The notes beneath the pieces were generated by a model, which was not told the origin of the DNA, did no database searches, and saw nothing but the letters and a program-made list of their open reading frames with translations. From positions 55,790 to 119,789 of the forward strand of contig JAAFIM010000003.1 of NCBI GenBank assembly GCA_013297745.1: a stretch of DNA of 64,000 nt, read 5' to 3'. The stretch's first letter is position 1. The number at the start of each line of letters is the position of its first letter. This DNA is from Chitinophagales bacterium. GTDB taxonomy: Bacteria; Bacteroidota; Bacteroidia; Chitinophagales; Saprospiraceae. Below are positions 1-48,563 of the stretch, one piece after another. The translations under genes were made by a program, and so were the position numbers.

Positions 1-477
1 ATACAATACATCCTCCAGCGGATAATTGCGTTCGATTTGGTCGCGGCGAATACGGCGGCTAAAAGCTGTGGTTTCGGGCGCGTGCAAAAACACTTTTAAA
101 TCCAACAACTCGGACATAGTTTTGTCGTACATCACAAACAAACCTTCAACGATGATAATCGGGCGGGGTTGAAAAAGCAACTGACGCGGGACTACATTGG
201 GGTTATTGAACGTATATTCTTGCCTTTCTACCGTTTCGTAGCGCAGCAAACGGGCTATATCTTCAGCAAATTCGTTCAAGTGTATAGCATCGGGCAGGTC
301 AAAATTAGCCACGCCATTTTCGTCTATTTTTTGCTGTTCGCGGGGGCGATAATAGTTGTCTTGAGAGATAATCAACAATTGCTCTGGCTCAAAAGCCGCT
401 TCCAATTGCTGTAAAAAGGTCGTTTTGCCCGAACCGCTTGCGCCAGTTAGCCCGATTAAAAAAGGTTTGGAGTTCAT
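1..477 (-). CDS. udk: Uridine kinase (5' part, cut by window edge)
   Basis: Pyrimidine salvage kinase that phosphorylates uridine and cytidine. The minus strand reads from ATG at 475-477 to the window edge as 159 codons with no stop, so the C-terminal part lies outside. Near the N-terminus the P-loop GASGSGKTT is visible. It is followed by a segment ending SQDNYYRPR and by NFDLPDAI, the usual substrate-binding region of uridine kinases, and further on by IIIVEGLFVMYD, a Walker B-like strand. The family is normally about 200-210 residues, so roughly three quarters is present. No partner gene is seen on this side, and the next 500 bases downstream are repeat DNA. Family assignment is secure; substrate preference is inferred from the family. 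Confidence 0.9.
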   Translation of the reverse strand, partial: MNSKPFLIGLTGASGSGKTTFLQQLEAAFEPEQLLIISQDNYYRPREQQKIDENGVANFDLPDAIHLNEFAEDIARLLRYETVERQEYTFNNPNVVPRQLLFQPRPIIIVEGLFVMYDKTMSELLDLKVFLHAPETTAFSRRIRRDQIERNYPLEDVLY

Positions 478-526
478 ACCAAAAGTAGCTTAGTTATAAA
501 AAAGGTAAAAGAAGTTATAAAATATA

Positions 527-986
527 ATTATTTGGTACTACTCCAAATTACTTGAAAGATAAAAAAATTAAGCAAAAACTAAATTTTCGTCGTGCGACGC
601 CAAAACCAGCGTATGTCGCGGAAAGACGACCAACCGAGCGTAGCGAGGGCAGTAGCTTTTTTTCTACGAAAAAAACGTCGGCTTGTAGCGACGGTTTTGC
701 GCTTATTTCCGTAGGAAATACAAGCAAAAACGCCTTTTTGGCGTTGGCTTTTTTGGTTACTTTTTTGCCACCAAAAAAGTAATAAAAATAAATTTTTTAG
801 GCGTAAGCCGTCAAAAATTTCTACCCGATTTAACTTATAGCTATTTTGTACTAAAATTAAACCTCAAGCGTAACCCCTGTAATAAACCAAAATTTTCGAC
901 ATAAGCCGTTAAAAATTTTGCAAGCCCACGTAACTTTTCAAAAGCATACTTTTTTTTCAAGTAATTTGGCACAGAGCCAATTATTT
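527..986. repeat. Dispersed intergenic repeat, element C family copy 1
   Basis: The gap between the uridine kinase and the next gene holds a repeat-like element. A perfect 14-bp inverted repeat (CCAAATTACTTGAA at 543-556 and its complement at 956-969) bounds it. Core blocks match the element at 16182-16583: the GTGCGACGCCAAAACCAGCG block, the GGCGTAAGCCGTCAAAA block and the CCTCAAGCGTAAC block. A 76-codon open frame here (552-782) is a by-product of the repeat and is not called as a gene. Confidence 0.7.
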
Positions 987-2165
987 TTTGTCGTCAGCAT
1001 CCAATAAATCAGACAAATTAACCGTATTATTGGCTAAAAAATTATCAATCCATTGATTAATTTCTGTAGATGTGGGCTTGGCTAAACTGGTTATCCAAAA
1101 CTCTCCTATCAAAAATTGACAGTTTTCTAAAGTAGTTTTTACAAACTCTTGCCCAGCAGATTGATAAGGCAATAAAAGCTCCAATTCAATATAATGTGGT
1201 TGATAACTAAAAGTTTCTAATTTTCCTTTTGCCAACAAAATTTGATTTTCAAACTCTTGGCGTACAAACAAGGCTTTACCCTCTGTCAATGGCTCTACTG
1301 AAGGCACAAAACATAAATGCCTTACCAAATTGCCAACACCACCCAAACCAGAAGCTAACAAAACAATGGGTTCATCCGAAAGGCTATTTTCCATCTGCAT
1401 TTGAGCTTGCAATAGAGCAGCCCTTGTCCAACCACGCAATTCCGCCGCAATGTCTTTCTCCAATTGTTGCAAAAAGCGAAAAGCCTCCACATCCCCCCGC
1501 ATAGAAATTAAAGCAATCTTCTCTCGAACCATTTCCTGATGGCTATAATCGGTTAAGGATTGAAAATAAAGATACGGATTTTCTGCTTTATTTTGATGTG
1601 CGCTTTGCAAATTGCTTAACTTTTGGCGATAAGCGTTCAAGTCAGCTTGCGGGATTCCCAATTCAAATACCCGTACAATTTTGGGTGCATTAGCCAATAT
1701 ACTTTGGATTTTTTCCATCAATTCCTGCATTTTTTCGGATAGATATTGCAGTGCCTTATCCAAATCTTTGCGCGTTTCTGCCATTTTGTCCGCTAATTTT
1801 TGCGTTTCATTTAGTTTTTCGCGCACCAAACGCTTAAACTTTTTCAACACTTCGCTATCTGTTGTGCATTCGTCCAAATAGGCAGCCAACGAACCTAAAT
1901 TTTGCATAATCCGCTCATTTTCTTCCTCTTTACTTTGTTTTTTTTGATTGGCTTCTTCATCCCCAATATCTTCTTTTTCGCTATCTACTTGCGATACTTG
2001 TGCTAAAAAAGCCTCAATATCTGGATGTTTGGCATTTAGGAAATCTACAATCTGATTCATTTGCTCCAAGTTAGCACCACTTTCGGGCTGATTTTGATTG
2101 GACAAATTTTCGTTTTCTTCGCCATCATCCCAAGGCGGATTATCCTCGTTGTTATTCTCTTTCAT
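981..2165 (-). CDS. Acidic coiled-coil protein of unknown function
   Basis: I do not recognise this 394-residue protein. The first ~90 residues are very acidic and low in complexity (rich in E, D, N and Q). Residues ~90-170 are strongly heptad-like and lysine/glutamate rich, which suggests a coiled coil. The C-terminal ~200 residues look globular, with alternating hydrophobic strands and several tryptophans and phenylalanines. No signal peptide or membrane segment is seen, so it is probably cytoplasmic. The start ATG at 2163-2165 follows an AT-rich gap of about 45 bases after the HTH lipoprotein gene, which lies upstream on the same strand, so the two may be co-transcribed. Function cannot be stated. 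Confidence 0.6.
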   Translation of the reverse strand: MKENNNEDNPPWDDGEENENLSNQNQPESGANLEQMNQIVDFLNAKHPDIEAFLAQVSQVDSEKEDIGDEEANQKKQSKEEENERIMQNLGSLAAYLDECTTDSEVLKKFKRLVREKLNETQKLADKMAETRKDLDKALQYLSEKMQELMEKIQSILANAPKIVRVFELGIPQADLNAYRQKLSNLQSAHQNKAENPYLYFQSLTDYSHQEMVREKIALISMRGDVEAFRFLQQLEKDIAAELRGWTRAALLQAQMQMENSLSDEPIVLLASGLGGVGNLVRHLCFVPSVEPLTEGKALFVRQEFENQILLAKGKLETFSYQPHYIELELLLPYQSAGQEFVKTTLENCQFLIGEFWITSLAKPTSTEINQWIDNFLANNTVNLSDLLDADDKK

Positions 2166-2210
2166 TTTTAATTAATTGATTGTTTTTAACGGTAAAATAA
2201 AAAGGATAAA

Positions 2211-2513
2211 TCAAAAAATAACCGCGCTGCTATCCCAATCAAATTTGGTATTGAGTATTTGCTCCATCTGTTTTAATTTATACGGCAACGGACTAGCAAA
2301 ACCATCCTCTATCAAAGACAAAGATACAGCTGAAACCCCCAAACTATCCGCCAATTGCTGCTGCGAAATTTGTTGCGCCAAACGCACTTTGCGTATCTGC
2401 TCGCCTATAGGATTAAGCGGTGGATTTACAACGTTTTGTTTTGACCCACAAGCCCAAATGCCCAAAGCCAACAGCGCAACCACAAAAAAAAACCGATATT
2501 TTAATCCGCACAT
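2211..2513 (-). CDS. Small lipoprotein/membrane-anchored protein with XRE helix-turn-helix
   Basis: A 100-residue protein with two parts that rarely occur together. Residues 1-22 form a basic start, a hydrophobic stretch (FFVVALLALGIWAC) and a cysteine at 22 followed by GS, which resembles a loose Bacteroidota lipobox. Residues ~35-85 fit an XRE/HTH_3 fold: IGEQIRKVRLAQQISQQQLA, then DSLGVSAVSLSLIEDG. XRE domains normally bind DNA in the cytoplasm. If the N-terminus is a true lipobox the domain would be exported. If it is an uncleaved anchor, the domain could sit on the inner face of the membrane. It lies 45 bases upstream of the coiled-coil gene and is divergent from the S24 repressor. Domain recognition is good; topology is open. 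Confidence 0.6.
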   Translation of the reverse strand: MCGLKYRFFFVVALLALGIWACGSKQNVVNPPLNPIGEQIRKVRLAQQISQQQLADSLGVSAVSLSLIEDGFASPLPYKLKQMEQILNTKFDWDSSAVIF

Positions 2514-2706
2514 ACGCTATACTTTTTATCTCTATTAGCTACCCAAAGACAGCTTTTTATAATTTTTAAGCAAATTTTTAACCAATAAATTCAAAAAAAA
2601 TTGTATAAAATATAAAAAATCAACATAAAACTTGTATATTTGCCACAGACAAAGTATTAATTTACAACATTTTGTTTTAAAACATACAAACTGTAAAACT
2701 TATCTT

Positions 2707-3381
2707 ATGGAACACGAACAAAAAAAAGAGTTTGCCCTACGTTTTAATAAATTATTTGAACAATTAAAAGCAGATGGCAAAATTAAAAACAAGTCGGCTA
2801 TGGGCGAGTTGTTGGGCTCTTACAATCATATTATTAAAGAAATTTTGGATGGACGGCGTACCCTTACTATAGAACAAATACATAAATTATCCACGCATTT
2901 TGGGGTCAATACCAACTATCTTTTTGGATTTAGCGAACAAATGTTTTTGGCAGAATCTAGCCCCACAAAAGGTAATATCACTTTGGTGGTACAAAAAGCT
3001 CAAGCGGGTTATGCTTTACAGCCTGACAATAATCATTTTTTACAAAATCAACCCAGTTTTAGCTTGCCTCAAATGGAAGGGCAATTATTTGCGTTTGAAA
3101 TTAGCGGCGATAGTATGCTCCCCCATATAGCAGATGGCGATTTATTGATTTGTGAAGACATTGAGCGCGGGCAACCCCTAAAAGATAATGCGGTTTATGT
3201 GGTCGTCACCGATACTGTAGTAGCCAAACGGGTGCAACAAATCCGCGATAATCAAGGATTACAAAAATTGCGGTTGCTATCAGACAACAGCCCCTTGTAT
3301 CAACCTTATGAGGTAGAATTGAACGAAGTGCGAAAAATGTTTAAAGTAAAGCGAAAAATTAGCAACCAAAACATTTTATAA
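2707..3381 (+). CDS. XRE/S24 (LexA/CI-like) repressor
   Basis: A 224-residue repressor-type protein with an N-terminal helix-turn-helix (about residues 8-75) and a C-terminal S24 signal-peptidase-like domain (about 90-220). The self-cleavage signature is complete: an Ala-Gly bond at residues 100-101 (KAQAGY), the catalytic serine 136 in SGDSMLPH and the general-base lysine 174 in VVAKRV. In this family DNA damage or another signal triggers autocleavage and derepression. I chose ATG at 2707 over an upstream in-frame ATG at 2632, because the upstream 25 residues look non-coding and family members begin close to the HTH. A TATATTTG box lies at 2635-2642. The stop codon is inside the target duplication of the mobile repeat that follows. 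It sits just before the retron-like locus and could control it, but the repeat separates them. Confidence 0.85.
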   Translation: MEHEQKKEFALRFNKLFEQLKADGKIKNKSAMGELLGSYNHIIKEILDGRRTLTIEQIHKLSTHFGVNTNYLFGFSEQMFLAESSPTKGNITLVVQKAQAGYALQPDNNHFLQNQPSFSLPQMEGQLFAFEISGDSMLPHIADGDLLICEDIERGQPLKDNAVYVVVTDTVVAKRVQQIRDNQGLQKLRLLSDNSPLYQPYEVELNEVRKMFKVKRKISNQNIL

Positions 3382-3627
3382 ACTGACCTTTCGCAGTTAA
3401 AAAATTTGGTGGATTGAAAAAAATAACAGTGTGCGCTCAATAGCGTGGGGTTTTACACCCCACGCACAAAAATGGTAAAAAATGTTATATTTTCTATTTT
3501 TTTATGGAAAATTTATCAGCGCGCGGGGTATAAAACCCCACGCTATTGAGCGCATATAGGAAAATTTAACTGCAAAAAACTAATTGTAAAAAAAATGAAA
3601 AATATACTGCGAAAGGTCAGTTATAAA
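3376..3627. mobile_element. Element A copy 1: 238-bp MITE-like element with 7-bp target duplication
   Basis: The element spans 3383-3620, beginning CTGACCTTTCGCAGT and ending with its reverse complement. It is flanked by the direct repeat TTATAAA (3376-3382 and 3621-3627). Inside is a long imperfect palindrome built on GCGTGGGGTTTTA and its complement. A second copy at 48267-48502 differs by about four substitutions and one 2-bp indel and has a different flanking duplication, which is what recent transposition in trans would leave. There is no coding capacity. The left duplication contains the TAA stop of the S24 gene. Confidence 0.85.
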
Positions 3628-3728
3628 TTCTCGCGGCAAAATTTAGCGTTTATTTTTGCGCAAAGCTACAGCTTTTTATTTAGTTGGCAAATTTTTTTTA
3701 AAAAATGCTTTTTTTTAACCATAAAATG

Positions 3729-3736
3729 TATCTTTG
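3729..3736 (+). promoter_or_regulatory. Bacteroidota -7 box upstream of the WH-SWIM gene
   Basis: TATCTTTG fits the TAnnTTTG -7 consensus and lies 50 bases before the ATG at 3786. No convincing TTG -33 element is visible at the right spacing, so this is a partial promoter call. Confidence 0.4.
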
Positions 3737-3785
3737 CGCTCGCTTATTTCGTAATTAGGTTTTTTGTTTCTAAAATATAAATACT

Positions 3786-5453
3786 ATGCAATTTAATTAT
3801 AAATATGGTGGTACAAGCCAAGCCAGCAGCAACGCTCAAGCTACCAATATGTCTTTTGCGCCCGATACATTGCGCCAACCTACTTTTTTTGTGGGCAAAT
3901 TGGCCAAACACGTAGCTTTTAGAGAGGCTATTTCTGCCCTCAATGCTGTTGTTGTTTCCGATTTGCGGTTCAAACCCAAAGACAAAACCGAATACTTGGC
4001 TTGGGCAAAAGCGCAAGAAGAGCGTTGGCTAGCCGAATATGTGGGCGCGAAAATCAACTTGAGCGAGCTACAAGACAAGATAAAAAATATCAACGCTCAA
4101 ATCGCGCAAGTGGATAAAGAGCAGCAGAAAACAACGGAGGTTTATTATAAAGCCAAACGCAGCTATTTTGATTATTTGTACAAAAAAGATATTGACGCGT
4201 GGATAGTTTTAGACCCAGTGATTACGATTCATCCCGACGCTGTATTTTTTGAATGTTTTAGCCAGGACGAAAGCACTTACGGCAAATTGAGCTGTAATTA
4301 TAACGTGTTTAAAGAAATCAACGAGTTTGAATGTGGCACAACTAATATTGATTATTCTGCCGCGCTTTACAACGAATTTCAAAAAATCCGCGACTACAAA
4401 GAAACCGAGTTCAAAATTGACCCGTCAGGCTTTGAGGTGCAAACAGGTACAGAAGATTTGTACAAAGAGGTAAAAATTGACCTACCAGATTCTTGGGTAA
4501 GGGGATTTTTGCAGGTGAGTTCGGCTATGACTATGCCCGCTACAGTTTTGGAGTTGCAACCGATGGATATTCACAGTTTGTGCTTGTATTTACGCCGTTT
4601 CAAAGAAAAACACGGACCGCGCTCTTTGCGCTTCCAACTAAACCCTGGCCAGCCGATAAAAGTCGTGTTTGAACCCTGGAATTATGAGTTGGTGTTTGAA
4701 CGTTCTATTTTCAAAGGGGACAAAGCTCAAGAAGTGCGCATTTGGGGTAGAAAACGTTTGCTTACTTTGGAGCGTTTGATACCAATAGCCAAGCGTTTCA
4801 TCATCACTTTATTAGGTTCTGGCTTGCCCTCTTTCTACGAAGCGGATTTGGGCGATATGAGTTACACTTTGGGTTTATCTGGTTGGACTAGCAACGATTG
4901 GTCTCGCGCTGGCAACTTTGATTTGTTAGCTCCCCGCACCCAAACCGATAGCATTACCCAAAATTTGGTTTTCCAAACCTTAAAACAAACCTGGTACGCT
5001 ACCGAAACCGACTTAGCCAAAAAATTAAACCTAACCCCCGACGTAATCGCTGGCAGTTTGTCCGCTTACACTCAGGCTGGGCGGGTTATTTACGATAGCT
5101 ATAATAAGGTATTCCGCGCGCGCGAACTCAGCCGCGAGCCGTTGGATATGAAAACTTTGCGCTTTGCTTCCCCACAAGAGGAATTGGCGAATAAATTGAT
5201 AGCTGAAAATAAAGTAACCGTCAGCGCGGAAGAATTAGCGGATGGCAAAACTCGCCTCACGGGTACGGTAAGACAAGGTAACCAAACTTATCATCCTACT
5301 CTTGTTATTGATGCCGATGATAGAATGATAGAAGCCGTTTGCGATTGCAATTTTTATAATATGAACAAACTCCGCAAAGGTCCTTGCGAGCATATTTTGG
5401 CTTTGCGTATGGCTTTCAACGCGAAAAAAGCTAAATTAGCGCTAATTTTTTAA
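3786..5453 (+). CDS. Winged-helix/SWIM zinc-finger protein (probable retron accessory protein)
   Basis: A 555-residue protein with a C-terminal SWIM zinc finger: C519 and C521 (CDC), C534 and H536 (CEH), which fits CxCx(n)CxH. Before it, about residues 393-446 (LKQTWYATETDLAKKLN followed by AGSLSAYTQAGRVIYD), lies a segment with the pattern of a winged helix. The N-terminal ~390 residues are not recognised; part is basic and may be coiled coil (about 75-125). SWIM fingers bind DNA or proteins. No signal peptide is present. The gene lies upstream of, and on the same strand as, the retron-like ncRNA and reverse transcriptase. From memory, WH-SWIM proteins are among the accessory proteins catalogued with retron RTs. 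Domain call is solid; role as effector or regulator is inferred. Confidence 0.75.
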   Translation: MQFNYKYGGTSQASSNAQATNMSFAPDTLRQPTFFVGKLAKHVAFREAISALNAVVVSDLRFKPKDKTEYLAWAKAQEERWLAEYVGAKINLSELQDKIKNINAQIAQVDKEQQKTTEVYYKAKRSYFDYLYKKDIDAWIVLDPVITIHPDAVFFECFSQDESTYGKLSCNYNVFKEINEFECGTTNIDYSAALYNEFQKIRDYKETEFKIDPSGFEVQTGTEDLYKEVKIDLPDSWVRGFLQVSSAMTMPATVLELQPMDIHSLCLYLRRFKEKHGPRSLRFQLNPGQPIKVVFEPWNYELVFERSIFKGDKAQEVRIWGRKRLLTLERLIPIAKRFIITLLGSGLPSFYEADLGDMSYTLGLSGWTSNDWSRAGNFDLLAPRTQTDSITQNLVFQTLKQTWYATETDLAKKLNLTPDVIAGSLSAYTQAGRVIYDSYNKVFRARELSREPLDMKTLRFASPQEELANKLIAENKVTVSAEELADGKTRLTGTVRQGNQTYHPTLVIDADDRMIEAVCDCNFYNMNKLRKGPCEHILALRMAFNAKKAKLALIF

Positions 5454-5545
5454 CCAAAAACAAATAAAAATGTCTTAAAATTGATTTTTTTTGTATAAAA
5501 ATGATATTTTTTGCAACTTTTTTTAGTATTATGGGTATAATCCCC

Positions 5546-5575
5546 TTGACAAGTTAAGAAACATACTTATCTTTG
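5546..5575 (+). promoter_or_regulatory. Promoter of the retron ncRNA
   Basis: TTG at 5546-5548 (within TTGACA), 19 bases, then TATCTTTG at 5568-5575. This matches the Bacteroidota primary-sigma promoter (TTG, N19-21, TAnnTTTG). The expected start site is about 5-8 bases downstream, just before the a1 segment of the ncRNA, so the RNA has a transcription unit of its own. Confidence 0.75.
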
Positions 5576-5581
5576 TGGCAT

Positions 5582-5872
5582 CGTTTTAATCACGAAAGAA
5601 ATAAGTCAATTTTGAATTTTTGGTATTGTGCGCCCTGAACCTTGCAAACTGAATGTTGTTTCGGCATTCCTGCTAACAGACCCAATCACGCATCACTAAG
5701 CAAAATCTTTATGATGCTAATGGGGGTGTCGGGGTACTAGGGGACTAATTAACGGTTTTAAGTCTTTGGACTTTCAATTAGTCCCCTAGTACCCCGACAC
5801 CCCCATTAGCTGGAGTTGATTTTCTTAGCCCTAAGAATGAACGAAGGCGCGCCACAATAACAAAACTTATCC
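5582..5872 (+). ncRNA. Retron msr-msd noncoding RNA
   Basis: Candidate retron template RNA, between the WH-SWIM and LURP-one-like genes. (1) Flanking a1/a2 complementarity: 5601-5635 pairs with 5846-5870 in blocks (ATAAGT, TTTTG, TATTGTG and CGC/CC, with bulges). (2) A msr-type hairpin at 5651-5669, GAATGTTGTTTCGGCATTC. This equals the hairpin of retron Eco1/Ec86 as I remember it (GGATGTTGTTTCGGCATCC) with one compensatory pair change, and is followed by the same CTGC after one extra C. (3) A small stem GCATCA/TGATGC (5690-5695 with 5712-5717). (4) A perfect 35-bp inverted repeat, 5716-5750 with 5776-5810, loop with inner stem AAGTC/GACTT, acting as the msd stem. (5) A stem TCTTAG/CTAAGA at 5823-5836. 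A promoter precedes it and a terminator follows it. Exact 5' and 3' ends are estimated; the branching guanosine was not assigned. Confidence 0.82.
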
Positions 5873-5875
5873 GAA

Positions 5876-5914
5876 ACACCAACGTATTTGATACGCTGGT
5901 GTTTTTTTTTGCTT
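5876..5914 (+). terminator. Rho-independent terminator of the retron ncRNA
   Basis: Stem ACACCA-A-CGTAT, loop TTG, then ATACG-C-TGGTGT, followed directly by a run of nine to ten T. It lies immediately after the a2 segment, so the ncRNA is a short independent transcript rather than only a leader of the downstream genes. Confidence 0.8.
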
Positions 5915-5952
5915 TTTTTTTCAATCATCACCACATATTTTTCAACAACACT

Positions 5953-6546
5953 ATGAGCATTTTCTCCCACGATGATTTTATCATCGACCAAAAGGTTAAT
6001 TTCTTCCAATTTGGCAATACTTACCAAATTTTAAACCGCCAAAACCAACCTATCGGCCGCATCCAACAGATTTTAACTGGCTTTCAAAAGTTTTTAAGAT
6101 TGTTGGTACACAAAAAAAACCTGCCTTTTTTATTCCAAATACAAAATGCAGACGGACAGGTAGAAGCTTCTTTACAACGCGGTTGGAGTTTTTTTGGTTA
6201 TGCTGCTGTCTCCATTTTGGATGCAAACGGGCAACAAATTGGCACGATTGAACGTAGATTTACTTTCGTAACCCCCACTTTTGAGATAAAAGATAGACGC
6301 GGCGCACTCATCGCCAAAATTACAGGCAATTGGATAGCTTGGACGTTTAAAATAGAAAACCCACAGGGCGAAACAATCGGCACTATTGATAAAAATTGGG
6401 CTGGTTTGGCTATGGAAATGTTCACTTTTGCGGATAAATATCGGGTACAAATCGCCGCAGATTATCCCGAAGCAGAACATAAAGTCGCTATCTTGTTGAG
6501 TGCCGTAACTATTGATATGTTATTGAAAGAATCAGAAAAATCATAA
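5953..6546 (+). CDS. LURP-one/phospholipid-scramblase-like protein
   Basis: A 197-residue protein whose sequence is a run of short beta-hairpin units: FGNTYQILNRQNQPIGRI, VSILDANGQQIGTIER, FEIKDRRGALIAKITGNW and FKIENPQGETIGTIDKNW. The repeated pattern (hydrophobic strand, turn with G, I-G/A-x-I) is that of the LURP-one-related/scramblase/tubby-like fold. The end is helical (EHKVAILLSAVTIDMLL), as in that fold. I chose ATG at 5953 because the upstream 18 codons are phenylalanine-rich reads of the terminator T-run. There is no signal peptide. It lies between the retron ncRNA and the RT gene (102 bases before the RT) on the same strand, the position often held by retron accessory genes. Lipid or membrane interaction is a family-based guess. 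Confidence 0.65.
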   Translation: MSIFSHDDFIIDQKVNFFQFGNTYQILNRQNQPIGRIQQILTGFQKFLRLLVHKKNLPFLFQIQNADGQVEASLQRGWSFFGYAAVSILDANGQQIGTIERRFTFVTPTFEIKDRRGALIAKITGNWIAWTFKIENPQGETIGTIDKNWAGLAMEMFTFADKYRVQIAADYPEAEHKVAILLSAVTIDMLLKESEKS

Positions 6547-6590
6547 TTAGTTTTTAGTGGTTAGTGATTAGTTTTTAATTGTATTTTTTT

Positions 6591-6632
6591 CACTCCCCAC
6601 CTCTCACCTCTCACTCCCCACCTCTCACCTCT
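6591..6632 (+). repeat. Two tandem 21-bp units before the RT gene
   Basis: CACTCCCCACCTCTCACCTCT is present twice head to tail (6591-6611 and 6612-6632), 16 bases upstream of the RT start codon. The strand is strongly pyrimidine-rich, unlike its AT-rich surroundings. Nothing else is seen in the gap between the two genes. Confidence 0.7.
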
Positions 6633-6648
6633 CAATCCTTTATAAATT

Positions 6649-8214
6649 ATGGAAAATAACGAACAACCGCGCACGCGGCAGCAGATTTACGACGCTATAG
6701 CTCAGGCTGGCACAAAAGAAGAATTTGTTTTATCGGAAATGAAGCGTTTGGGCTTTTGGGATATTACCAAAGAAGTTCCCAAAGAGTCCGAAGAATTGCG
6801 CCTCAAACGCCAAGAGTTGGTAAAACAGCTCAATGACTTGCTCAAAGTCCAACAACAATATGGCGACAGTCAAAAATTGTTGAAAGAAATGCGCGCCGAG
6901 CGTATGGCCAACGCCCTCAAAAAACGGGAAGAAACCAAAGCCCGCCGCATAGCCAACCGAAACGAAAAAGCGCGCCTTTGGGCGGAAAGCCAAGCGCAAG
7001 ATATTACCTATTTGGGCGAGGATGTATCGGGTGGTTTGAACCAAAAACAATCCGACACAGCCAAATTGCAACAATTGGGGCTGCCCGCCTATAACAATGT
7101 GTTGGAATTGGCGCAAGCAATGGGCGTATCTATGAGCGAGTTGCGATTTTTGGCATTTGATAGACGCACTAGCCGCGTTAGTCATTATCAACGGTTTGAA
7201 ATACCCAAGAAAACGGGCGGCACGCGCAAAATTTCCGCTCCTATGCCCCGTCTAAAAAAGGCGCAGTATTGGATTTTACAGAATATACTCTATCCTTTGC
7301 ACACGCACAAAGCCGCGCACGGGTTTGTACCCCAATTATCTATAGTTACAAACGCCCAAAACCACGTGGGCAAAGAGGTTTTAATCAATATAGACCTCAA
7401 AAACTTTTTCCCTACCGTTACTTACCGCCGCATCAAAGGTATGTTTGTAGCTTTGGGTTATTCCGAGCAGTTGGCGACGATTTTCGCGCTGTTATGTTCA
7501 GAACCCGATGTGGATAAGGTAGAATTAGACGGCAAAACCTTTTTTGTAACGCGCGGCGAACGCTTATTGCCTCAAGGCGCGCCCACAAGTCCAGCTTTGA
7601 CCAACATTATTTGTTACAAATTGGATATTAGATTGGCGGGTATGGCTGCCAAATTCGATTTTACCTACTCCCGCTACGCCGACGACATCAGTTTATCCGC
7701 TATGGATAGCCGTTATATCAATTTAGCTTTGCGCCAAGCCGAACAAATTATCACCGATGAGGGTTTTATTATCAACCCCAACAAAGTACAAGTGATGCGC
7801 AAAGGCGCGCAAAAAGAAGTTACGGGTATAGTCGTTAATGAAAAGTTGAACGTTAGCAAATCTCACCTCAAACAATTCCGCGCTGTGTTGCATACCCTTG
7901 CCAACAAAGGAGCGGACAAGGTTGTTTTCGGTGGTGCTAATTTGGAACTGTCTATACGCGGTTTTGCTCAGTTTGTGAAGATGGTTAATCCCGAAAAGGG
8001 GGAAAAATTGGTGCAAGAAGCCAACGAAATCCTTTCCCGTGAGGATATACGCCAACAATTGGATAAATTGAAAGGTACTAAACCCGCCAAATTTAGCCGC
8101 CGCCCCGCCAAAACTGAAGAAAAAGTGGTTGAAACCAAACCCAAAGCTGATATTATTGATAATAATTCTAATAATAATAACGCAGCAACCGATTGGTGGG
8201 ATATTTTTGCCTAA
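6649..8214 (+). CDS. Retron-type reverse transcriptase
   Basis: A 521-residue RNA-directed DNA polymerase. The RT palm motifs are all visible: INIDLKNFFPT with D249, LPQGAPTSP (308-315) and YADD at 343-346 with both catalytic aspartates. The two retron-specific signatures are also present: NAxxH as NAQNH (235-239), just before motif A, and VTG (391-393) in the Y region. An N-terminal extension of about 170 residues is basic and coiled-coil-like (about 45-110) and includes ITYLGEDVSG; it is longer than in classical retron RTs. The C-terminus (about 470-521) is low-complexity and ends in a short tryptophan motif (DWWDIFA). In retrons the RT copies part of the cognate ncRNA into msDNA, and the RT-msDNA complex controls a toxic or antiphage effector. 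The matching ncRNA lies upstream, separated by one gene. Not a group II intron RT: no maturase region or intron RNA was seen. Confidence 0.9.
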   Translation: MENNEQPRTRQQIYDAIAQAGTKEEFVLSEMKRLGFWDITKEVPKESEELRLKRQELVKQLNDLLKVQQQYGDSQKLLKEMRAERMANALKKREETKARRIANRNEKARLWAESQAQDITYLGEDVSGGLNQKQSDTAKLQQLGLPAYNNVLELAQAMGVSMSELRFLAFDRRTSRVSHYQRFEIPKKTGGTRKISAPMPRLKKAQYWILQNILYPLHTHKAAHGFVPQLSIVTNAQNHVGKEVLINIDLKNFFPTVTYRRIKGMFVALGYSEQLATIFALLCSEPDVDKVELDGKTFFVTRGERLLPQGAPTSPALTNIICYKLDIRLAGMAAKFDFTYSRYADDISLSAMDSRYINLALRQAEQIITDEGFIINPNKVQVMRKGAQKEVTGIVVNEKLNVSKSHLKQFRAVLHTLANKGADKVVFGGANLELSIRGFAQFVKMVNPEKGEKLVQEANEILSREDIRQQLDKLKGTKPAKFSRRPAKTEEKVVETKPKADIIDNNSNNNNAATDWWDIFA

Positions 8215-8528
8215 TTATTGGAGTTGTTTAGTATGATTTTTATCTTTTAATTTCTCTATGTTGTGCGGGACTAAAGTCCCAGCACAATTGATATTTAGGA
8301 TTTTTTCGCGCTTTTGGGGCTAAAGCCCCGCGCGTTTTATACTTTTATCGGTCAATACCAACGGGTTTTAACCCGTTGAAGGACAAAAAAACAATTGCAA
8401 CAGACTTTAGTCTGTTGCTTAAAAGGCATAAACAGTTATTTTTCTTGATTGAAAATGTAAAAAAATTCTTACTAAACATCTCTATTATTATAATAATTTA
8501 TAAATATCTATAGAAAAAGCAATTCGCC
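8215..8528. repeat. Cluster of four unlike palindromes after the RT gene
   Basis: The gap holds four separate REP-like hairpins, each with the A/T-rich centre seen elsewhere in the window: around 8258-8285 (GCGGGACTAAAGTCCC), 8308-8336 (GGGGCTAAAGCCCC with GCGC flanks), 8359-8379 (CAACGGGTTTTAACCCGTTG) and 8396-8419 (GCAACAGACTTTAGTCTGTTGC in two arms). The stems differ, so they are different repeats with a common design. No gene is seen. Confidence 0.6.
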
Positions 8529-8813
8529 TTAATTGGTGGGTTGCTTTTTTTTGTGTTTATACCCGTTTTTGCAAAGTTTTAACGCGTTATTTGCGTGACT
8601 CAACGCGTTATTCACGCGGCTCAATGCATTATTTGCGCGGCTCAATGTGTTATTTGCGTGGCTCAATGTATTATTTGCGTGGCTCAATGTGTTATTTGCG
8701 TGGCTCAATGTGTTATTTGCGCGGCTCAACGTGTTATTTGCGTGGCTCAATGTGTTGTTTGCGTGGCTCAATGCCTTGTTTGCGTGTTTCAATGCCTTGT
8801 TTGCGCGTTTCAA
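8529..8813 (-). CDS. Heptad-repeat ORF over the minisatellite (doubtful gene)
   Basis: The minus strand is open for 94 residues from a TTG codon at 8811-8813: MKRANKAL, then about eleven copies of a seven-residue unit (SHANNTL), then a basic tail. The heptad could form a coiled coil. Against it: the unit is 21 bases, so all frames stay open once one is; three plus-strand frames are open too; there is no ATG; and no promoter was found. It could be a real repeat protein, but the repeat explains the open frame without selection. Confidence 0.25.
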   Translation of the reverse strand: MKRANKALKHANKALSHANNTLSHANNTLSRANNTLSHANNTLSHANNTLSHANNTLSRANNALSRVNNALSHANNALKLCKNGYKHKKKQPTN

Positions 8814-8822
8814 TGCGTTAAA
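8580..8822. repeat. 21-bp minisatellite, about 11 units
   Basis: Tandem array of a 21-base unit with consensus GTTATTTGCGTGGCTCAATGT, starting about 8580 and decaying toward 8822 (the last units change to TTGTTTGCGTGTTTCAATGCC). Units differ by one to three bases, mostly transitions (GCGTGG/GCGCGG, AATGT/AACGT). Confidence 0.85.
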
Positions 8823-8834
8823 TTTGTGTTTTAG

Positions 8835-9141
8835 GTGATAAAAAAATTATTGGCGGTTAGGATGTAGATTTTTAAATTGGATTAAGCAACAAATAGGTTT
8901 TTATTTTTTACAAACCCCGTGTTTTACACGGGGCAATTGCTGTTCAACCCCGTTGGGGTTGGCAATATAAAACCCCAACGGGGTTTAACAAAAATAGCCC
9001 CGCGTTACAACGCGGGGACAATGTGTAAAAAAATTTACAAGATGATTTAATTTTTAATTGTTATTTTATTTTTTTTTATAAAATTGGCACGATATTTGTA
9101 GTCATAAATATAATTTTTAACTAATTTAATTTTTTAAAATA
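8835..9141. repeat. Palindromic repeats before the 9142 gene
   Basis: Three kinds of hairpin lie here: CCCCGTGTTTTACACGGGG (about 8916-8935), an inverted pair of AACCCCGTTGGGGTT and AACCCCAACGGGGTT (about 8946-8988), and CCCCGCGTTACAACGCGGGG (about 8999-9018). The rest is AT-rich spacer. A TATTTG box at about 9093-9098 could be part of the promoter of the next gene, but the match is poor. Confidence 0.6.
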
Positions 9142-9759
9142 ATGGCAAAATTTTTTCCCCGTAGCGAAGCCGAAAAACGGGTTTGGTTAGCACATTTTAA
9201 AGAAAAACTGCCCGTAATTGGGCGCAATTTAAATTTAGACCCAAATAGATTGCAACAAATAGACGCAAAATTGGGGTTAATGATTGCACAAATAGATGAT
9301 GTACACGCTGCCGAAATGAATTTGGCTACTGTAGTACAAACGCGCAACGAAAACAGGGACGAAACTATGCCTGAAGTGTTTCAGTTGGCAAAAGAGATAA
9401 AAACCAACAGTAATTATCTCAAATCTATGGGCGAAACGCTGGGAATTGAACCCAATCCGCGCCCAAAAGCGGCTAAAACTGTGCCAAGTATAGAAAGTTT
9501 GGAAGTTGTGGTTAAAATTAGCAATCAAAAAATTACTTTTGAGTTCAAAAAACCGCGCGGGGTGTCTGTGATTATTTATTGCCGCCGCAGCGATGAAGAT
9601 TTTGTGCAAGTTCGGCAAATTACGGGCAACAGTTACGAAGATACCCGCAGCAATTTGCGCAATCAACCCATAGAAAAGCGCGAGTATTGTTTTACGCTGA
9701 TAAAAAATGACAAAGAAAGCGACCGTTCCACTATCTACCCTGTGGCGGCTTTGCAATAA
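9142..9759 (+). CDS. Hypothetical protein with C-terminal fibronectin-III-like strand region
   Basis: A 205-residue protein without signal peptide. The N-terminal half (about 1-115) is helical and charged (EAEKRVWLAHFKEKLPVIGR). The C-terminal half (about 120-205) reads as beta strands (ITFEFKKPRGVSVIIYCRRS, then EKREYCFTLI) with the look of a fibronectin type III module. I do not recognise a named family. It stands alone between repeat DNA and a terminator. ATG at 9142 is the only sensible start. Function unknown. Confidence 0.7.
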   Translation: MAKFFPRSEAEKRVWLAHFKEKLPVIGRNLNLDPNRLQQIDAKLGLMIAQIDDVHAAEMNLATVVQTRNENRDETMPEVFQLAKEIKTNSNYLKSMGETLGIEPNPRPKAAKTVPSIESLEVVVKISNQKITFEFKKPRGVSVIIYCRRSDEDFVQVRQITGNSYEDTRSNLRNQPIEKREYCFTLIKNDKESDRSTIYPVAALQ

Positions 9760-9762
9760 CAA

Positions 9763-9801
9763 AAAAACCAACCTGCAAAATGCGCAAGTTGGTTTTTTTT
9801 A
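9763..9801. terminator. Bidirectional terminator between convergent genes
   Basis: Stem AACCAAC...GTTGGTT with inner TGC/GCGCA pairing, A-run on one side and T-run on the other. It serves the 9142 gene on the plus strand and the outer-membrane protein gene on the minus strand. Confidence 0.75.
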
Positions 9802-9814
9802 TTAAAATAATGGT

Positions 9815-10564
9815 TTAAAATTGATAAGATATGCCCAAAGCCGCACCAATTTGATACTGAAAACGATTTATTTTATAACGAACCGTAGCAAAATTAGCTT
9901 CAGCAAAAGCGGATATATTTTTATACAATTTATAGTTAAAATTTACCCCTGTTTGTAGCTGTGCCCAACTGTTATTTTCTGTATTTGGTTTATTATTTGC
10001 ACTTCTTTGGCTTATTTTGCCGTCTTGTAAGTCGCTAATTATATAATTTTGTGCTACAATAATAGTTGGGTTGTAAGCTAATTTTATAGATAAATCCCAT
10101 TTGTTGCGTTTGATAACTGCATAACTTGCGCCGAGTTGTAATTGTAGAAAATGAAAATTATTTACGACTGATAAAGTTGGATTTGAATACTCTTCTCCTA
10201 AATTTGCGTAAGCTTGGTCTAAAAAAGGTTCCGTTGGAGGAGCTGTTATAATTCCAGGTATTATTATACGCGGGTCAGGATAATAACGCAATAAACGTTT
10301 TGTATTTACGCTAAAATATGCACAAGATACAAAGGCAGCTAATCTATTGAATTGTTTTTTAATTCCTACGCCATATAACGTATTATACTTTTTGTTAAAA
10401 CTATAAAAACCATCCAAATCCCGATTAGTATAAATTGGCGACACTGAAGCGTTGATAGCCCAATGATTATCTACAATTTTCTTTTTAGGCTTACGTTTTT
10501 GCGCATAAGTGTGGGTTGAAACAAAAAATAAGAGCGCGATAAGCGATAACAGTTTAAAATACAT
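9815..10564 (-). CDS. Outer-membrane beta-barrel protein
   Basis: A 249-residue exported protein. Residues 1-21 are a clear signal peptide (LLSLIALLFFVSTHTYAQ, cleavage after AQ likely). The mature part starts with a very basic stretch (KRKPKKK) and continues as alternating strands with aromatic residues. It ends in YQF, the C-terminal phenylalanine expected of a beta-barrel. The size fits an eight-stranded OmpW/porin-family barrel of the kind common in Bacteroidota. It is transcribed toward the terminator at 9763. Ligand and role cannot be told. Confidence 0.7.
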   Translation of the reverse strand: MYFKLLSLIALLFFVSTHTYAQKRKPKKKIVDNHWAINASVSPIYTNRDLDGFYSFNKKYNTLYGVGIKKQFNRLAAFVSCAYFSVNTKRLLRYYPDPRIIIPGIITAPPTEPFLDQAYANLGEEYSNPTLSVVNNFHFLQLQLGASYAVIKRNKWDLSIKLAYNPTIIVAQNYIISDLQDGKISQRSANNKPNTENNSWAQLQTGVNFNYKLYKNISAFAEANFATVRYKINRFQYQIGAALGISYQF

Positions 10565-10636
10565 ATTGAATCCCGATTAATTTTGATAACTATTCGGAAT
10601 AAAACGGGGATAAAATAAATAGGTTGGGTTATAAAA

Positions 10637-10672
10637 ACAAAAAAAGCGATTGTTTCCAACCGCTTTTTGTAT
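10637..10672 (-). terminator. Terminator of the glutamate dehydrogenase gene
   Basis: On the minus strand AAAAAGCGGTT, loop GGAAAC, then AATCGCTTTTTTT, 18 bases after the stop codon of the dehydrogenase gene. Stem has one mismatch; the T-run is long. Confidence 0.7.
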
Positions 10673-10689
10673 AAAAATGTATGTATTGA

Positions 10690-12105
10690 CTATGGGAATA
10701 TGCCCAAAGCTGCGTAGTCGTTGCCAATTTTTTTGATAGCATAAACAAAAGCAGCAGTGCGCAAGCTATTCAATCCAGCTATAGATTTCCAAGTGTTGCG
10801 GATACCGTGGTAAGCGGTAATCATAGTTTCTTCCAAACCAGAGCGAACCAAATCCACCTCGTCAGCACCGCGAACGATAATCGCGCGGTCGCGTTCGTCA
10901 ACTTTTTTGCCAGTTAGGCTTTCTACTGTATTGATGATATTTTCGTACGCTTTTTGTTCAAAACGTTTTTGCATACGGCCGAAACGCACGTGAGAAAGGT
11001 TTTTCAACCATTCAAAGTAAGAAACGGTAACCCCACCAGCGTTGATGTACATATCGGGGATAATCAAACAACCGCGTTGCAATAAAATAGCTTCAGCTTC
11101 GGGCGTAACGGGACCGTTGGCAGCTTCGGCGATGATTTTAGCTTTGATACGAGCAGCGTTATCGGCATTGATTTGGTTTTCCAAAGCAGCAGGAACGAGA
11201 ATATCACATTCCAACTCCAACGCTTCGCCACGAGTTGCCAATTGAGTTGCACCAGCGAAACCAAGGATTGAACCTGTTTTGTCGCGGTGAGCAATCAACG
11301 CTTCTACGTCCAAACCAGCAGCGTTATAGATAGCGCCATCGTGTTCGGCAACGCAAATCACTTTAACCCCACCCTCTTTTTGAGAGATTAAGCCCGTGTA
11401 AGAACCCACGTTACCCAAACCTTGGATAACCATAGTTTTGCCTTCCAAGCCTGTGGTCAAACCCAACGCTTTCATATCGTCTTCAAACGAGCAAGCAGTG
11501 CGCAAGCCGTAGAATACACCACGACCTGTAGCTTCTGTACGCCCTTGAATACCGTTTTGGTTAACGGGTTTGCCCGTAACGCAACCAGCAGCGTCGATTT
11601 CGCCGTGTTTGAGCGCGGTATAAGTATCTACAATCCAAGCCATTTCGCGAGGACCTGTACCATAATCGGGAGCGGGAACATCAAGGCCTGGGCCGATGAA
11701 GTTTTTGCGCACCAATTCGGCAGTATAGCGGCGAGTGATACGCTCCAATTGTTCAACTGTGTATTTTTTAGGATTAATTTTAATCCCACCTTTTGCACCA
11801 CCAAAAGGAACATCAACTACAGCACATTTGTAAGTCATCAACGCAGCAAGAGCCATAACCTCATCTTGGTTAACGTCTTCGCTGTAACGGATACCACCTT
11901 TGGTAGGTTGGCGGTGATTGCTGTGCTGAACGCGGTAGGCTTCCAAAACCTCTACGTCGCCATTGGCTAATTTGAGCGGCACTTGCACTCTCAAAACTGC
12001 ATTGCAACCTTTAATTTGTTGGAGTAAGCCCTGCGGCAAACCTGTGAAAGGGGCGGCTTGGTCGAAATACTTTTCAACGCCCTGAAAAAAGCTGTACGCT
12101 GACAT
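10690..12105 (-). CDS. Glu/Leu/Phe/Val-family dehydrogenase, probable glutamate dehydrogenase
   Basis: Catalyses reversible oxidative deamination of an amino acid, most likely glutamate to 2-oxoglutarate, linking nitrogen and carbon metabolism. The 471 residues from ATG at 12105 carry the family landmarks: KGGIRY (69-74), [20 protein letters not shown] with K93 and the catalytic K105, and a Rossmann glycine motif ([11 protein letters not shown]). An upstream in-frame start 27 codons earlier gives an unlikely basic tail, so the inner ATG before [13 protein letters not shown] is preferred. The protein is somewhat longer than typical ~425-residue bacterial enzymes. Substrate choice between glutamate and branched-chain amino acids cannot be proven by eye. 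It is the last gene of a minus-strand run from 16123. Confidence 0.88.
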
Positions 12106-12166
12106 AACGTTTTTGTTGTTTAAAAAATTTTTTGAATAAAATATATGGTAAAAACGATTATCTGAT

Positions 12167-12613
12167 TTAAAATTCTGTTTCAACACATAATTTCCTAAAA
12201 GGAATATCTTTAATCTGTGTTAATATATCTGAAGCAATGGGAAAAGCAAAATCATCTTGAAACCAAATAACTATTAGAGTAGAAATAAACCAATCTTCTT
12301 CATTATTTTTGTTTTTTAAACCACCACTACCAAAATGCGTCAAATTTGATATGCAGCAAGCAGAAGGTAAAGACATAGGCACACCAAATCCATATTCGCC
12401 TTTGTACTCTATAGGCGTTTGTGTAGGGGTAATGAGATGCAAAGCTTTTTGTTGAAAAATGTGTTCAGCTCTTCGCTTTGCCTGCTCTATAATCATTTGA
12501 TTTAGTCTATCGTGAGGCAATCCTTCGATTAAACCTACATAAGTTGGAAATTGATAAAAGCCTTCTATAGAAACCACTAAATTGCGGTCGACAATAAGTT
12601 TATTTTTATTCAT
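12167..12613 (-). CDS. Hypothetical protein
   Basis: A 148-residue protein starting [19 protein letters not shown]. An upstream in-frame start (12676) would overlap the CcmD-like gene in another frame, so the ATG at 12613, five bases after that gene's stop, is preferred. It has no signal peptide or membrane segment. Two cysteines (ACCISN) stand in the middle. No family was recognised. Its tight spacing suggests co-transcription with the heme/cytochrome c maturation genes upstream. Confidence 0.6.
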
Positions 12614-12618
12614 TTTAT

Positions 12619-12798
12619 CTACTCCTCTTCCTGTTGTTCGAGCTGTTTGAGGCGGCTTTCCATAGTAAAAAGCCAATAAAATACAGCGATTAAGAGAATA
12701 GCGATAACGCCCACGACTACATAAATTTTGCCATTGCTGTACATAAGAGCTTCAGAAGCGGATTGGACAGCGGCGGGGGGATTAAGTTGGGTATTCAT
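12619..12798 (-). CDS. CcmD-like small membrane protein
   Basis: A 59-residue single-span protein: short polar N-terminus, MYSNGKIYVVVGVIAILLIA, FYWLF, then a charged tail (ESRLKQLEQQEEE). This is the pattern of Bacteroidota CcmD-family proteins, which accompany CcmC in heme delivery for cytochrome c maturation. It lies directly downstream of the CcsA/CcmC gene on the same strand, which supports the call. Confidence 0.75.
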   Translation of the reverse strand: MNTQLNPPAAVQSASEALMYSNGKIYVVVGVIAILLIAVFYWLFTMESRLKQLEQQEEE

Positions 12799-12909
12799 AC
12801 GATAAAAGAGAATAAAATACGGTTAAAATGATTTTTCGGGGGCAAAGGTGCGTTTTTTTTATGAATTAAAAGGTATAAACCGAATAAAATTTTTTCAAAA
12901 AGCAGCTTT

Positions 12910-13989
12910 TTATCCCATTTTTTCCGCTTTGCGGGCAGCTAATAGCACAATACGCGCGTTTATGTTCGCAATCCATACCCCAAACAGTATCCAGCCGATA
13001 ATAGCGGGGTAGAAAACAAGTCTTAAGTTGTTGTCCAAATCATAACTGCTAAAAGCGGGATTTCCCCCCATACCAGGGTGCAAACTATCCACCATACGCG
13101 GTACAATATACAGCAAAGGTATTAGCGTGGAAAAAGCAAAAATGTTGTAAATGGCCGAAATGCGCCCTTTTTTGTCCAAATCTTCAAAAGAACCCCTAAG
13201 CACAAAATAAGCCATATAAATTAATAAAGCTATAGCCGAAGTGTTCTGTTTAACGTCCCAACTCCACCAATCGCCCCAAGTATAACGCGCCCACAACGCG
13301 CCCGTCAATATCCCCACTATCCCATATAATAAACCTATAGCGGCAAAAGATTGAGATTTAACATCATAAACATTATGCTGGGGGCGGCGCAGGTGCAAAA
13401 TGCTATAAATAGCCGAAACCAAGAGCAATAACATCATCCCAAACCACATCGGCACGTGAAAGAATAAATTGCGGATAGATTCTTCTAATATATTGAGAAA
13501 GGGGAATTTGCGCCCTTCGCTTTGGGGATAAGGTTGTACGGCAGAGAAAGCAGCTTGAGTATTTTCGCCAATTTTATCAAAAATTACCGCCGATTTTACT
13601 GAAGTATAACCTTGTGTGGGGCTGCTAATTTCTAACAAAGGATAGGGACTTTTTTTATTGAGCGCGGGCGAGCTAATATCCACGGGCATATTCCCCTCTG
13701 GTATATCAAAATTAAGCACCAAATCATTCCCCAACACCTGCGCACCTTTGGCTTCAATAGCTTGGTTTTTATTCAAACGGATACGCGCCTTGAGCGAATT
13801 GTTGGCTACATCGGGCGCATAATTGGAATTGTACGTGGATAATTGGAGTAGCACTTCCCCCCGTTGGGAGATAAAAGCTGGGCTAATTTTTTGCACGCCT
13901 GCGCCCATAGGTGTGAGCATACCAGCGATTAATGTGTAAAAAATTAGACTAATCGATAAAAATTTCCACCAATGTTGTTTGATAAGCAT
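12910..13989 (-). CDS. ccsA: Cytochrome c biogenesis protein CcsA/CcmC family
   Basis: Inner-membrane heme-handling protein for cytochrome c maturation. The 359 residues contain a first membrane segment (about 10-28), a ~140-residue periplasmic region rich in strands, and then five or so membrane spans. The family's tryptophan-rich heme-binding motif WGDWWSWDVKQ follows the third span; histidine candidates stand in the flanking loops (FFHVPMWFG, LHPGMGG). The large N-terminal periplasmic insertion is a Bacteroidota feature. The neighbouring CcmD-like gene fits. Whether it is best called CcmC (system I) or CcsA (system II) is not decided by the sequence. Confidence 0.85.
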   Translation of the reverse strand: MLIKQHWWKFLSISLIFYTLIAGMLTPMGAGVQKISPAFISQRGEVLLQLSTYNSNYAPDVANNSLKARIRLNKNQAIEAKGAQVLGNDLVLNFDIPEGNMPVDISSPALNKKSPYPLLEISSPTQGYTSVKSAVIFDKIGENTQAAFSAVQPYPQSEGRKFPFLNILEESIRNLFFHVPMWFGMMLLLLVSAIYSILHLRRPQHNVYDVKSQSFAAIGLLYGIVGILTGALWARYTWGDWWSWDVKQNTSAIALLIYMAYFVLRGSFEDLDKKGRISAIYNIFAFSTLIPLLYIVPRMVDSLHPGMGGNPAFSSYDLDNNLRLVFYPAIIGWILFGVWIANINARIVLLAARKAEKMG

Positions 13990-14000
13990 ATTAGATAAAA

Positions 14001-22555: not shown

Positions 22556-22866
22556 ATTATAATTTGCGTTGTAAAACGTATTAATAGCGTGGGGTTTTAT
22601 ACCCCACGCACAAAATTAATCCCCGCGTGCAGTGTAAAATCCCACGCTTTATTATACAATTATTCCCGCGTGGGGTGTAAAAATCCACACTTTATTATAC
22701 AATTATTCCCGCGTGGGGTGTAAAAATCCACGCTTTATTATACAATTATTCCCGCGTAGGGTATAAAAATCCACGTTTTATTATACAATTATTCCCGCGT
22801 GGGGTGTAAAACCCCACGCTATTGATACACAACATATAATTTATATTACTAATTAAATACTTTTTC
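22556..22866. repeat. Element B copy 1 with inner 43-bp hairpin array
   Basis: The ends match the element at 48564-48739: ATTATAATTTGCGTTGTAAA with the AATAGCGTGGGGTTTTATAC block on the left and CTATTGATACACAAC with AATTAAATACTTTTTC on the right. Between them this copy has five units at 22622, 22665, 22708, 22751 and 22794 (period 43), each holding CCCGCGTGGGGTGTAAAA and TTATTATACAATTATT. The GTGGGG..CCCCAC halves make hairpins. Confidence 0.7.
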
Positions 22867-48266: not shown

Positions 48267-48510
48267 CTGACCTTTCGCAGTGAAAAAATTTGGTAGATTG
48301 AAAAAAACAACAGTGTGCGCTCAATAGCGTGGGGTTTTACACCCCACGCACAAAAATGGTAAAAAATGTTATATTTTCTATTTTTTTATGGAAAATTTAT
48401 CAGCGCGGGGTATAAAACCCCACGCTATTGAGCGCATATAGGAAAATTTAACTGCAAAAAGCTAATTGTAAAAAAAATGAAAAATATACTGCGAAAGGTC
48501 AGTTAAATAA
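48259..48510. mobile_element. Element A copy 2: 236-bp MITE-like element with 8-bp target duplication
   Basis: The element spans 48267-48502, CTGACCTTTCGCAGT to its reverse complement, flanked by TTAAATAA (48259-48266 and 48503-48510). It is nearly identical to 3383-3620, with about four substitutions and one 2-bp difference in the GCGCGCGGGG run. The left duplication contains the TAA stop of the hydrolase gene. Confidence 0.88.
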
Positions 48511-48563
48511 CTGAAGTTATCTATCAATATTTGCACTTAAGTAGCAAGAACAATTTATTTGAT

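Follow-up and report, generated by a model that had tools for sequence, protein, structure and literature searches.

Parts of a type XIII-kind retron, including a protein with a predicted clamp fold, probably lie dispersed in the genome of a Chitinophagales bacterium

We analysed a window of 64,000 nucleotides (the whole stretch of DNA under study) from contig JAAFIM010000003.1 of a Chitinophagales bacterium and identified in it a locus that, judged by its sequence, is a retron of the type XIII kind. Four elements follow one another on the plus strand (locus coordinates are window positions): a SWIM_XIII gene (3786-5453), a retron noncoding RNA (ncRNA; 5624-5858), a gene of the LURP-one/Scramblase family (5953-6546) and the gene for an RT_XIII reverse transcriptase (RT; 6649-8214). 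We consider it probable that these are parts of a dispersed retron, in which a WGR/HEAT gene and a second, divergent ncRNA are placed on other contigs, and in which the RT is predicted to copy the msd hairpin of the ncRNA into multicopy single-stranded DNA (msDNA) that likely holds a WGR-SWIM pair in check until disturbance by a phage. What the analysis establishes is the identity of the genes and of the RNA, their placement on separate contigs, the covariation within the RNA and the predicted folds. The points that appear new are the dispersal and the predicted clamp in the SWIM protein; the latter is not claimed as unreported, the literature on clamps with retrons or SWIM proteins not having been searched. 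The available part of PMC12548924 describes retrons generally as phage immune systems composed of an RT, a template ncRNA and an effector, and the available part of PMC11953036 mentions 'retron type XIII' in passing for Variovorax; our literature search found no experimentally tested mechanism for type XIII.

The RT, a protein of 521 amino acids, carries the motifs NAxxH, YADD and VTG and matched the PADLOC model RT_XIII at 1e-182 with 606 bits, compared with 301 bits for the runner-up model, and the best 25 of 66 models all carry names of retron types. Its type was assigned from this margin between hidden Markov models in place of a phylogenetic tree. A preliminary description, which had called the locus a retron from the letters of the DNA and had proposed that the RT belongs among retron RTs, is thus upheld by the models, not by a tree, and the locus can be typed as XIII by the RT together with the covariance match described below. 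The open reading frames (ORFs), motifs, promoter-like boxes, RNA and terminator that it listed are likewise all present. The naming of retron types is reportedly due to Mestre et al. in 2020. The ORFs of the RT, SWIM and LURP-one proteins are intact, with the RT and zinc-finger motifs kept. SWIM_XIII, RT_XIII and LURP each have a single match in the host draft genome, and the RT homologues of its closest metagenomic relatives are at 60-92% identity.

The ncRNA was found in relatives as well. A regular-expression scan recovered the RNA from 12 sources, including the window, and the alignment comprises 16 sequences; a covariance model was then built from 15 relatives with the window excluded. 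In the window, this model matched 5638-5848 with 83.5 bits (E 5.6e-22), the next match in the 64 kb having an E value of 0.26, so the search with ncRNA models that had been suggested for the region 5540-5920 came out in favour of a retron ncRNA. Further matches, none of them in the model, were obtained in loci L064, L073, L074, L078, L075 (two copies), L156 and L099. The RNAalifold structure of the alignment comprises 26 pairs in three helices; 91.3% of the cells pair, and 21 of the 26 pairs show two-sided changes. Its covariation (0.608) exceeded that of shuffled alignments (0.210; 0 of 500 as high), although such shuffles do not remove the relatedness of the sequences, and that of slid versions (0.07-0.14), over which the structure is favoured because it was derived from the same alignment. 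The window RNA has the msr stem-loop, the msd hairpin, the a1/a2 duplex (a1, ~5624-5635; a2, ~5847-5858; weak in this copy) and the proximity to an RT that are expected of a retron ncRNA. In the test of the a1/a2 duplex, with flanks of 35 and 50 bases that cut some arms, 17 of 24 ncRNA copies beat all 200 shuffles, whereas for the remaining seven, the window copy included, 14 to 118 of the 200 did as well or better. The msd hairpin, at 5718-5808, is predicted by folding to be long and nearly perfect (~33 bp), and the msd core of the window folds at a lower energy than any other in the comparison of 24 ncRNAs, their lengths not being equalised; in relatives, too, long hairpins occur directly 5' of the RT. 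The G at 5644, part of a CTTGC and itself invariant in 16 of 16 aligned ncRNAs, is by analogy a candidate priming G. Upstream lies a promoter-like TTG-N19-TATCTTTG (5546-5575) and downstream a hairpin with a T run resembling an intrinsic terminator (5875-5910; sequence and fold). No family of Rfam 15 reached its threshold on the window RNA, and sub-threshold microRNA models on the msd hairpin were taken as chance matches because the hairpin is long.

Where the window departs from other type XIII loci is in the gene that precedes SWIM. SWIM_XIII was sought in four samples, some genomes belonging to more than one. Of 395 genomes of the phylum, 15 had a match at 1e-3 (6 near full length), and of 119 of the order, 7 had one at 1e-50 (5 near full length), both counts including the host genome. 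Matches were also present in 7 of 299 genomes from one family (at 1e-100) and in 12 of 244 from the cyanobacterial phylum (at 1e-50; 11 near full length); among the 12 same-family genomes of the host listed, none had SWIM_XIII at 1e-50. Shorter and partial matches set aside, 27 near-full-length SWIM_XIII loci besides the window were collected (8.8-21.6 kb), including those of Terrimonas and Methylobacterium, and tblastn recovered SWIM in all 27. In every one of them the next large ORF 5' of SWIM is a large gene on the same strand, separated by gaps of up to ~360 bases or, in L073, L074 and L077, by ~0.7-0.8 kb with a few small ORFs between. Twenty of these upstream genes fall into one blastp cluster, four scanned members of which (L059, L063, L001 and L036) match WGR_XIII at 1.5e-251 or better; the gene of L080, truncated by the contig end, matches the cluster, and the six divergent genes, all scanned, each match WGR_XIII or HEAT-ARM_XIII at 6.2e-8 or better. 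That the winged-helix SWIM protein is a retron partner was rightly proposed, and its recurrence beside homologous RTs was observed as anticipated; the partnership was already known, as PADLOC holds a SWIM_XIII model. No relatives were found in viral contigs. A pattern search of genome contigs gave three loci; two are from Nostoc, where the RTs lack the N-terminal part of type XIII and the genomes gave no SWIM_XIII match. Plasmids gave four records with one full relative (Methylobacterium). In the cyanobacterial loci L073, L074 and L154 the type XIII RT lies 3' of an RNase III gene (by Pfam in L073 and L154, by the same blastp cluster in L074), and an NYN-domain gene is nearby in L073.

No WGR/HEAT gene is present among the ORFs of window positions 1-14000. 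The host genome does contain a WGR_XIII gene, on contig C105 (L086, 8705-11881), with an intact ORF of 1058 amino acids that matches at 6.1e-280; it was the only WGR_XIII relative found in this genome with the WGR protein of L059 as query, and the C105 stretch read had no ncRNA match. The suggestion that the locus is a complete defence unit was consequently not sustained, because the gene that stands upstream of SWIM in all 27 other loci is missing here. Across the loci, the C105 WGR protein and the window RT give similar rankings of similarity (Spearman 0.82, n 25; 0.62 in the 19 core loci). A second, divergent ncRNA was detected on contig C92 (L099, 8158-8391; 53.4 bits), which retains the msr, helix 2, a terminator-like hairpin and a good a1/a2 duplex (0 of 200 shuffles); in the portion of the match that was listed, all pairs are standard. 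Like other type XIII retrons (PADLOC RT_XIII, SWIM_XIII, WGR_XIII and HEAT-ARM_XIII), the host genome thus has a homologous RT, SWIM and ncRNA, the ncRNA 5' of the RT, and WGR_XIII; it differs in that WGR is on another contig, a LURP-one gene stands between ncRNA and RT, and a second ncRNA lies elsewhere.

At C92 the diverged ncRNA is followed, within L099 8158-9222 and near the contig end, by a vWA-domain gene (PF00092, 1.7e-7) whose ATG is 162 bases away. Position alone favours this gene as an effector, and we did not adopt it. MoxR/vWA conflict systems were also dropped as relatives, the terms SWIM, WGR and PCNA having no occurrence in a term search of the available part of PMC7159879.

Dispersed type XIII sets recur in other genomes. 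An RT relative was found at 1e-40 in all 29 genomes searched, 27 of which carry near-full-length SWIM_XIII; in five of these 27 the RT is on a contig other than that of SWIM. In four cyanobacterial genomes (G894, G810, G853 and G689) WGR, SWIM and the ncRNA share a locus while a different contig carries the RT, around which the stretch read gave no ncRNA match, although in G853 the RT is <0.3 kb from the contig end on its upstream side and an ncRNA there could be missed. In the fifth, G961, the RT is apart as well and no ncRNA was detected. These four sets resemble the host genome in having all parts present but dispersed, and differ in that the RT is the part that stands off, whereas in the host it is the WGR gene. 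In L073, L074 and L078 SWIM and the RT share a contig, the latter ~2 kb or more further on, and in the cyanobacterial L075, whose RT is on another contig, two ncRNA copies (6279-6513 and 7605-7793) lie ~1.1 kb apart 3' of WGR-SWIM. Genome G719 was rejected as a split case, its WGR gene being cut by contig ends. The covariance model matched in 21 of the 29 genomes, and the eight without a match are six with a divergent SWIM and the two Nostoc without SWIM_XIII; since only 90 of several hundred candidates per genome were scored, such an absence is not proof. That all proteins are present in the host and in the five other genomes even though the parts are separated suggests that they function in trans. 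For Nannocystis, dispersed msDNA-like copies are known, according to titles cited in PMC6868368, and a literature search for retrons with split parts acting in trans in cyanobacteria returned nothing on dispersed type XIII. Literature searches on retrons together with LURP-one gave, judged by title, no paper on the present arrangement, and those on retrons with WGR none on type XIII.

The gene between the ncRNA and the RT is real, and its membership in the retron is unproven. Pfam Scramblase scored above its cut-off on the protein, the LOR profile being listed for homologues and not for the window protein, and the predicted fold is a Tubby-like barrel; the gene thus resembles the LURP-one/Tubby-like/scramblase family and differs from it in its retron neighbourhood, seen in the host genome only. 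Membership is unproven because the gene is beside none of the 27 other SWIM_XIII loci (blastp on ORFs; tblastn at 0.01), a set outside which the neighbourhoods of the closest metagenomic RT relatives fall. It was also absent from eight RT loci fetched later (tblastn at 0.01). The recurrence of LURP-one genes beside homologous RTs, which had been foreseen, therefore failed in the loci that could be read, the gene was rejected as a conserved retron partner, and its proposed role as effector or regulator found no support in its context. Of the four-part order first described, the arrangement itself is real in the host genome, but its standing as a unit was not established, given the WGR/HEAT-type gene elsewhere. 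Could the locus instead be a new retron type, SWIM-ncRNA-LURP-RT, in which LURP-one replaced WGR as the local effector and the C105 WGR acts alone? Some other retron types do carry an effector between ncRNA and RT, the gene occupies that position on the same strand, and the search for its relatives yielded few (10 of 164 candidates at E <= 1e-3). We nevertheless judge this quite unlikely, in view of the empty count in the 27 loci, of a fold of the Tubby/LURP-one type, which to our knowledge is not a known toxin fold, and of a C105 WGR that belongs to the XIII family and ranks in similarity like the RT.

The SWIM protein (PADLOC SWIM_XIII, 2.5e-237, 786 bits) is predicted to contain a PCNA-like clamp fold. 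Structure prediction gives a two-domain clamp at residues 34-373 with a helical insert at ~68-139, followed by a winged helix (389-445), and a SWIM zinc finger CxC..CxH lies at 519-536. The predicted clamp resembles the sliding clamps PCNA and 9-1-1 and differs from them in the identity of 5-11% among the matches listed, in its insert and in the fused winged helix and SWIM finger; the formation of a ring is hypothetical. Upstream of the gene is a promoter-like TAnnTTTG box (TATCTTTG; 3729-3736), which we take to be the Bacteroidota promoter consensus, with T-rich stretches upstream. A palindromic, GC-rich repeat resembling GCGTGGGGTTTTATACCCC, whose copies often form inverted pairs, is dispersed in the window at 3443-3543, 22587-22819, 48327-48617 and 63837-63895, the copy at ~3443-3543 being directly 5' of SWIM.

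The RT ends in the peptide WWDIF (8194-8208), a candidate docking motif. Among the best 120 of 4020 RT matches, 101 have WWx[ILVMF] within the last nine residues, compared with a mean of 0.41 and a maximum of 4 in 500 shuffles; the copy in P0062 lies within a membrane-helix-like tail and is likely fortuitous. Among the RTs of the loci read, five of 29, including the window, carry this tail, and that of L058 ends in WWTTF. A second pattern, [ILM]xx[FWYL][FWY], which we take to be PIP-box-like, occurs in the last 20 residues of six of six RTs that were picked after viewing their tails (L060, L061, L063, L064, L065 and L071; shuffled mean 0.27), and in the last 15 residues of all 120 it occurs six times against a mean of 2.15 and at most 8, and is not clearly enriched. 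The cyanobacterial RTs L073-L079 have neither motif. In P0060, P0061, P0062, P0102 and L036 the RT ends in a hydrophobic, membrane-helix-like tail instead of a soluble WW tail. Docking of the RT tail on the clamp is thus a hypothesis with mixed support from these sequences. We tentatively extend it to a retron that is distributed and centred on a sliding clamp, a picture that is possible but falls short of probable: one RT would serve ncRNAs in trans at separate loci and would use the aromatic peptide at its C terminus (of the WWxF type here; in six related genomes a PIP-box-like hydrophobic-x-x-F-F) to dock on a PCNA-like ring partner, msDNA would be held in or by the clamp, and phage attack on the msDNA would release a replication-blocking WGR-clamp complex.

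For the dispersed retron that we favour, the following course can be proposed. The RT would prime on a G of the msr, probably 5644, and copy the hairpin at 5718-5808; the SWIM protein, with its predicted clamp, winged helix and zinc finger, would bind or encircle the msDNA, and the WGR protein would join them. The WGR domain senses DNA breaks in PARPs. Loss or alteration of the msDNA would then free the WGR-SWIM pair to attack DNA replication, and the LURP-one protein may be a passenger or a membrane-tethering accessory. The same parts might alternatively perform a cellular function in DNA replication or repair and not phage defence, as the predicted clamp, the WGR domain and the position of the RT 3' of RNase III in three cyanobacterial loci could suggest. 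We regard this as unlikely, since the set is patchy, with SWIM_XIII in seven of the 299 genomes of one family and in none of the 12 listed for that of the host, and since retrons are generally described as phage immune systems (PMC12548924, available part).

Shorter SWIM_XIII-like genes were examined at three loci, two of which, L166 (2224-6578) and L167 (2214-6649), have a WGR-SWIM pair apart from a retron. As in type XIII, a large gene whose N terminus carries a WGR domain precedes a shorter SWIM_XIII-like gene (4.5e-62 and 7.4e-73 to SWIM_XIII); these pairs differ in that the large gene is WGR-DUF6493 by Pfam, with no WGR_XIII match at 1e-10, and that the stretches contain no RT and no ncRNA match. 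This fits a partner module that was later joined by RT and ncRNA, and perhaps type XIII originated in that direction.

Several observations weigh against the dispersed retron as we interpret it. The ranking of the RT against SWIM gives 0.70, and in the core loci a non-significant rho of 0.33 (p 0.17) although these genes lie together, which makes the ranking test a blunt one. The co-occurrence of RT and SWIM stands without a background rate for RT_XIII in genomes that lack SWIM_XIII. No PCNA family is among the three Pfam families listed for the window SWIM protein (E <= 10; HMMER filters drop weak matches) or among the 25 of 49 listed for 23 SWIM members, and no clamp is among its 17 PDB sequence matches. 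In L168, the third locus with a shorter SWIM-like gene, a cation ATPase gene precedes SWIM, and the gene that follows has a DUF6493 match that stays below threshold. The window a1/a2 duplex is weak, 14 of 200 shuffles being as good, and the C92 ncRNA lacks a long msd stem, its longest helix measuring 7 bp, so that this second copy may be decaying. The lack of that stem would also fit a decaying remnant, in which WGR was lost from the site, LURP-one and repeats moved in and neither ncRNA copy works; the missing upstream WGR gene, the palindromic repeat just 5' of SWIM and the sporadic occurrence in the host's family agree with it. We think such a remnant has a poor chance of being the right account, as the ORFs of RT, SWIM and LURP-one, with their motifs, and of WGR are intact, RT, SWIM and ncRNA score as full members, and the window msd core folds as stably as described above. 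Finally, the host genome is a draft of 154 contigs, and an ordinary contiguous type XIII retron could have been split by errors of assembly or binning. This is very improbable: SWIM stands 59 kb inside a contig of 120 kb, the ends of C105 are 13.7 kb and 9.3 kb away from WGR, and contamination of the assembly is 0.06. The tetranucleotides of C105 and C92 correlate with those of the window at r 0.95-0.96, as within the window itself, compared with at most 0.91 for 12 loci of other genomes, and together with GC content are consistent with one genome. Moreover, the splits recur in the five further genomes, one of which has contigs of 1.1 and 2.5 Mb, and in G853 the SWIM locus is at least 90 kb from both contig ends.

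Downstream of the RT, a gene of 205 amino acids (9142-9759) is one of nine paralogues dispersed in the genome and was for that reason rejected as a retron partner; one copy is beside the C105 WGR gene. Repeat-rich ORFs or arrays adjoin several of the copies read, and in the window an 11-copy array of a 21-bp unit occupies 8584-8820.

If type XIII retrons can be dispersed, detection that relies on gene neighbourhoods could miss or mis-type them. The covariance model supplies an RNA signature for type XIII, and the predicted clamp offers this type a concrete hypothesis, that of msDNA on a sliding clamp.

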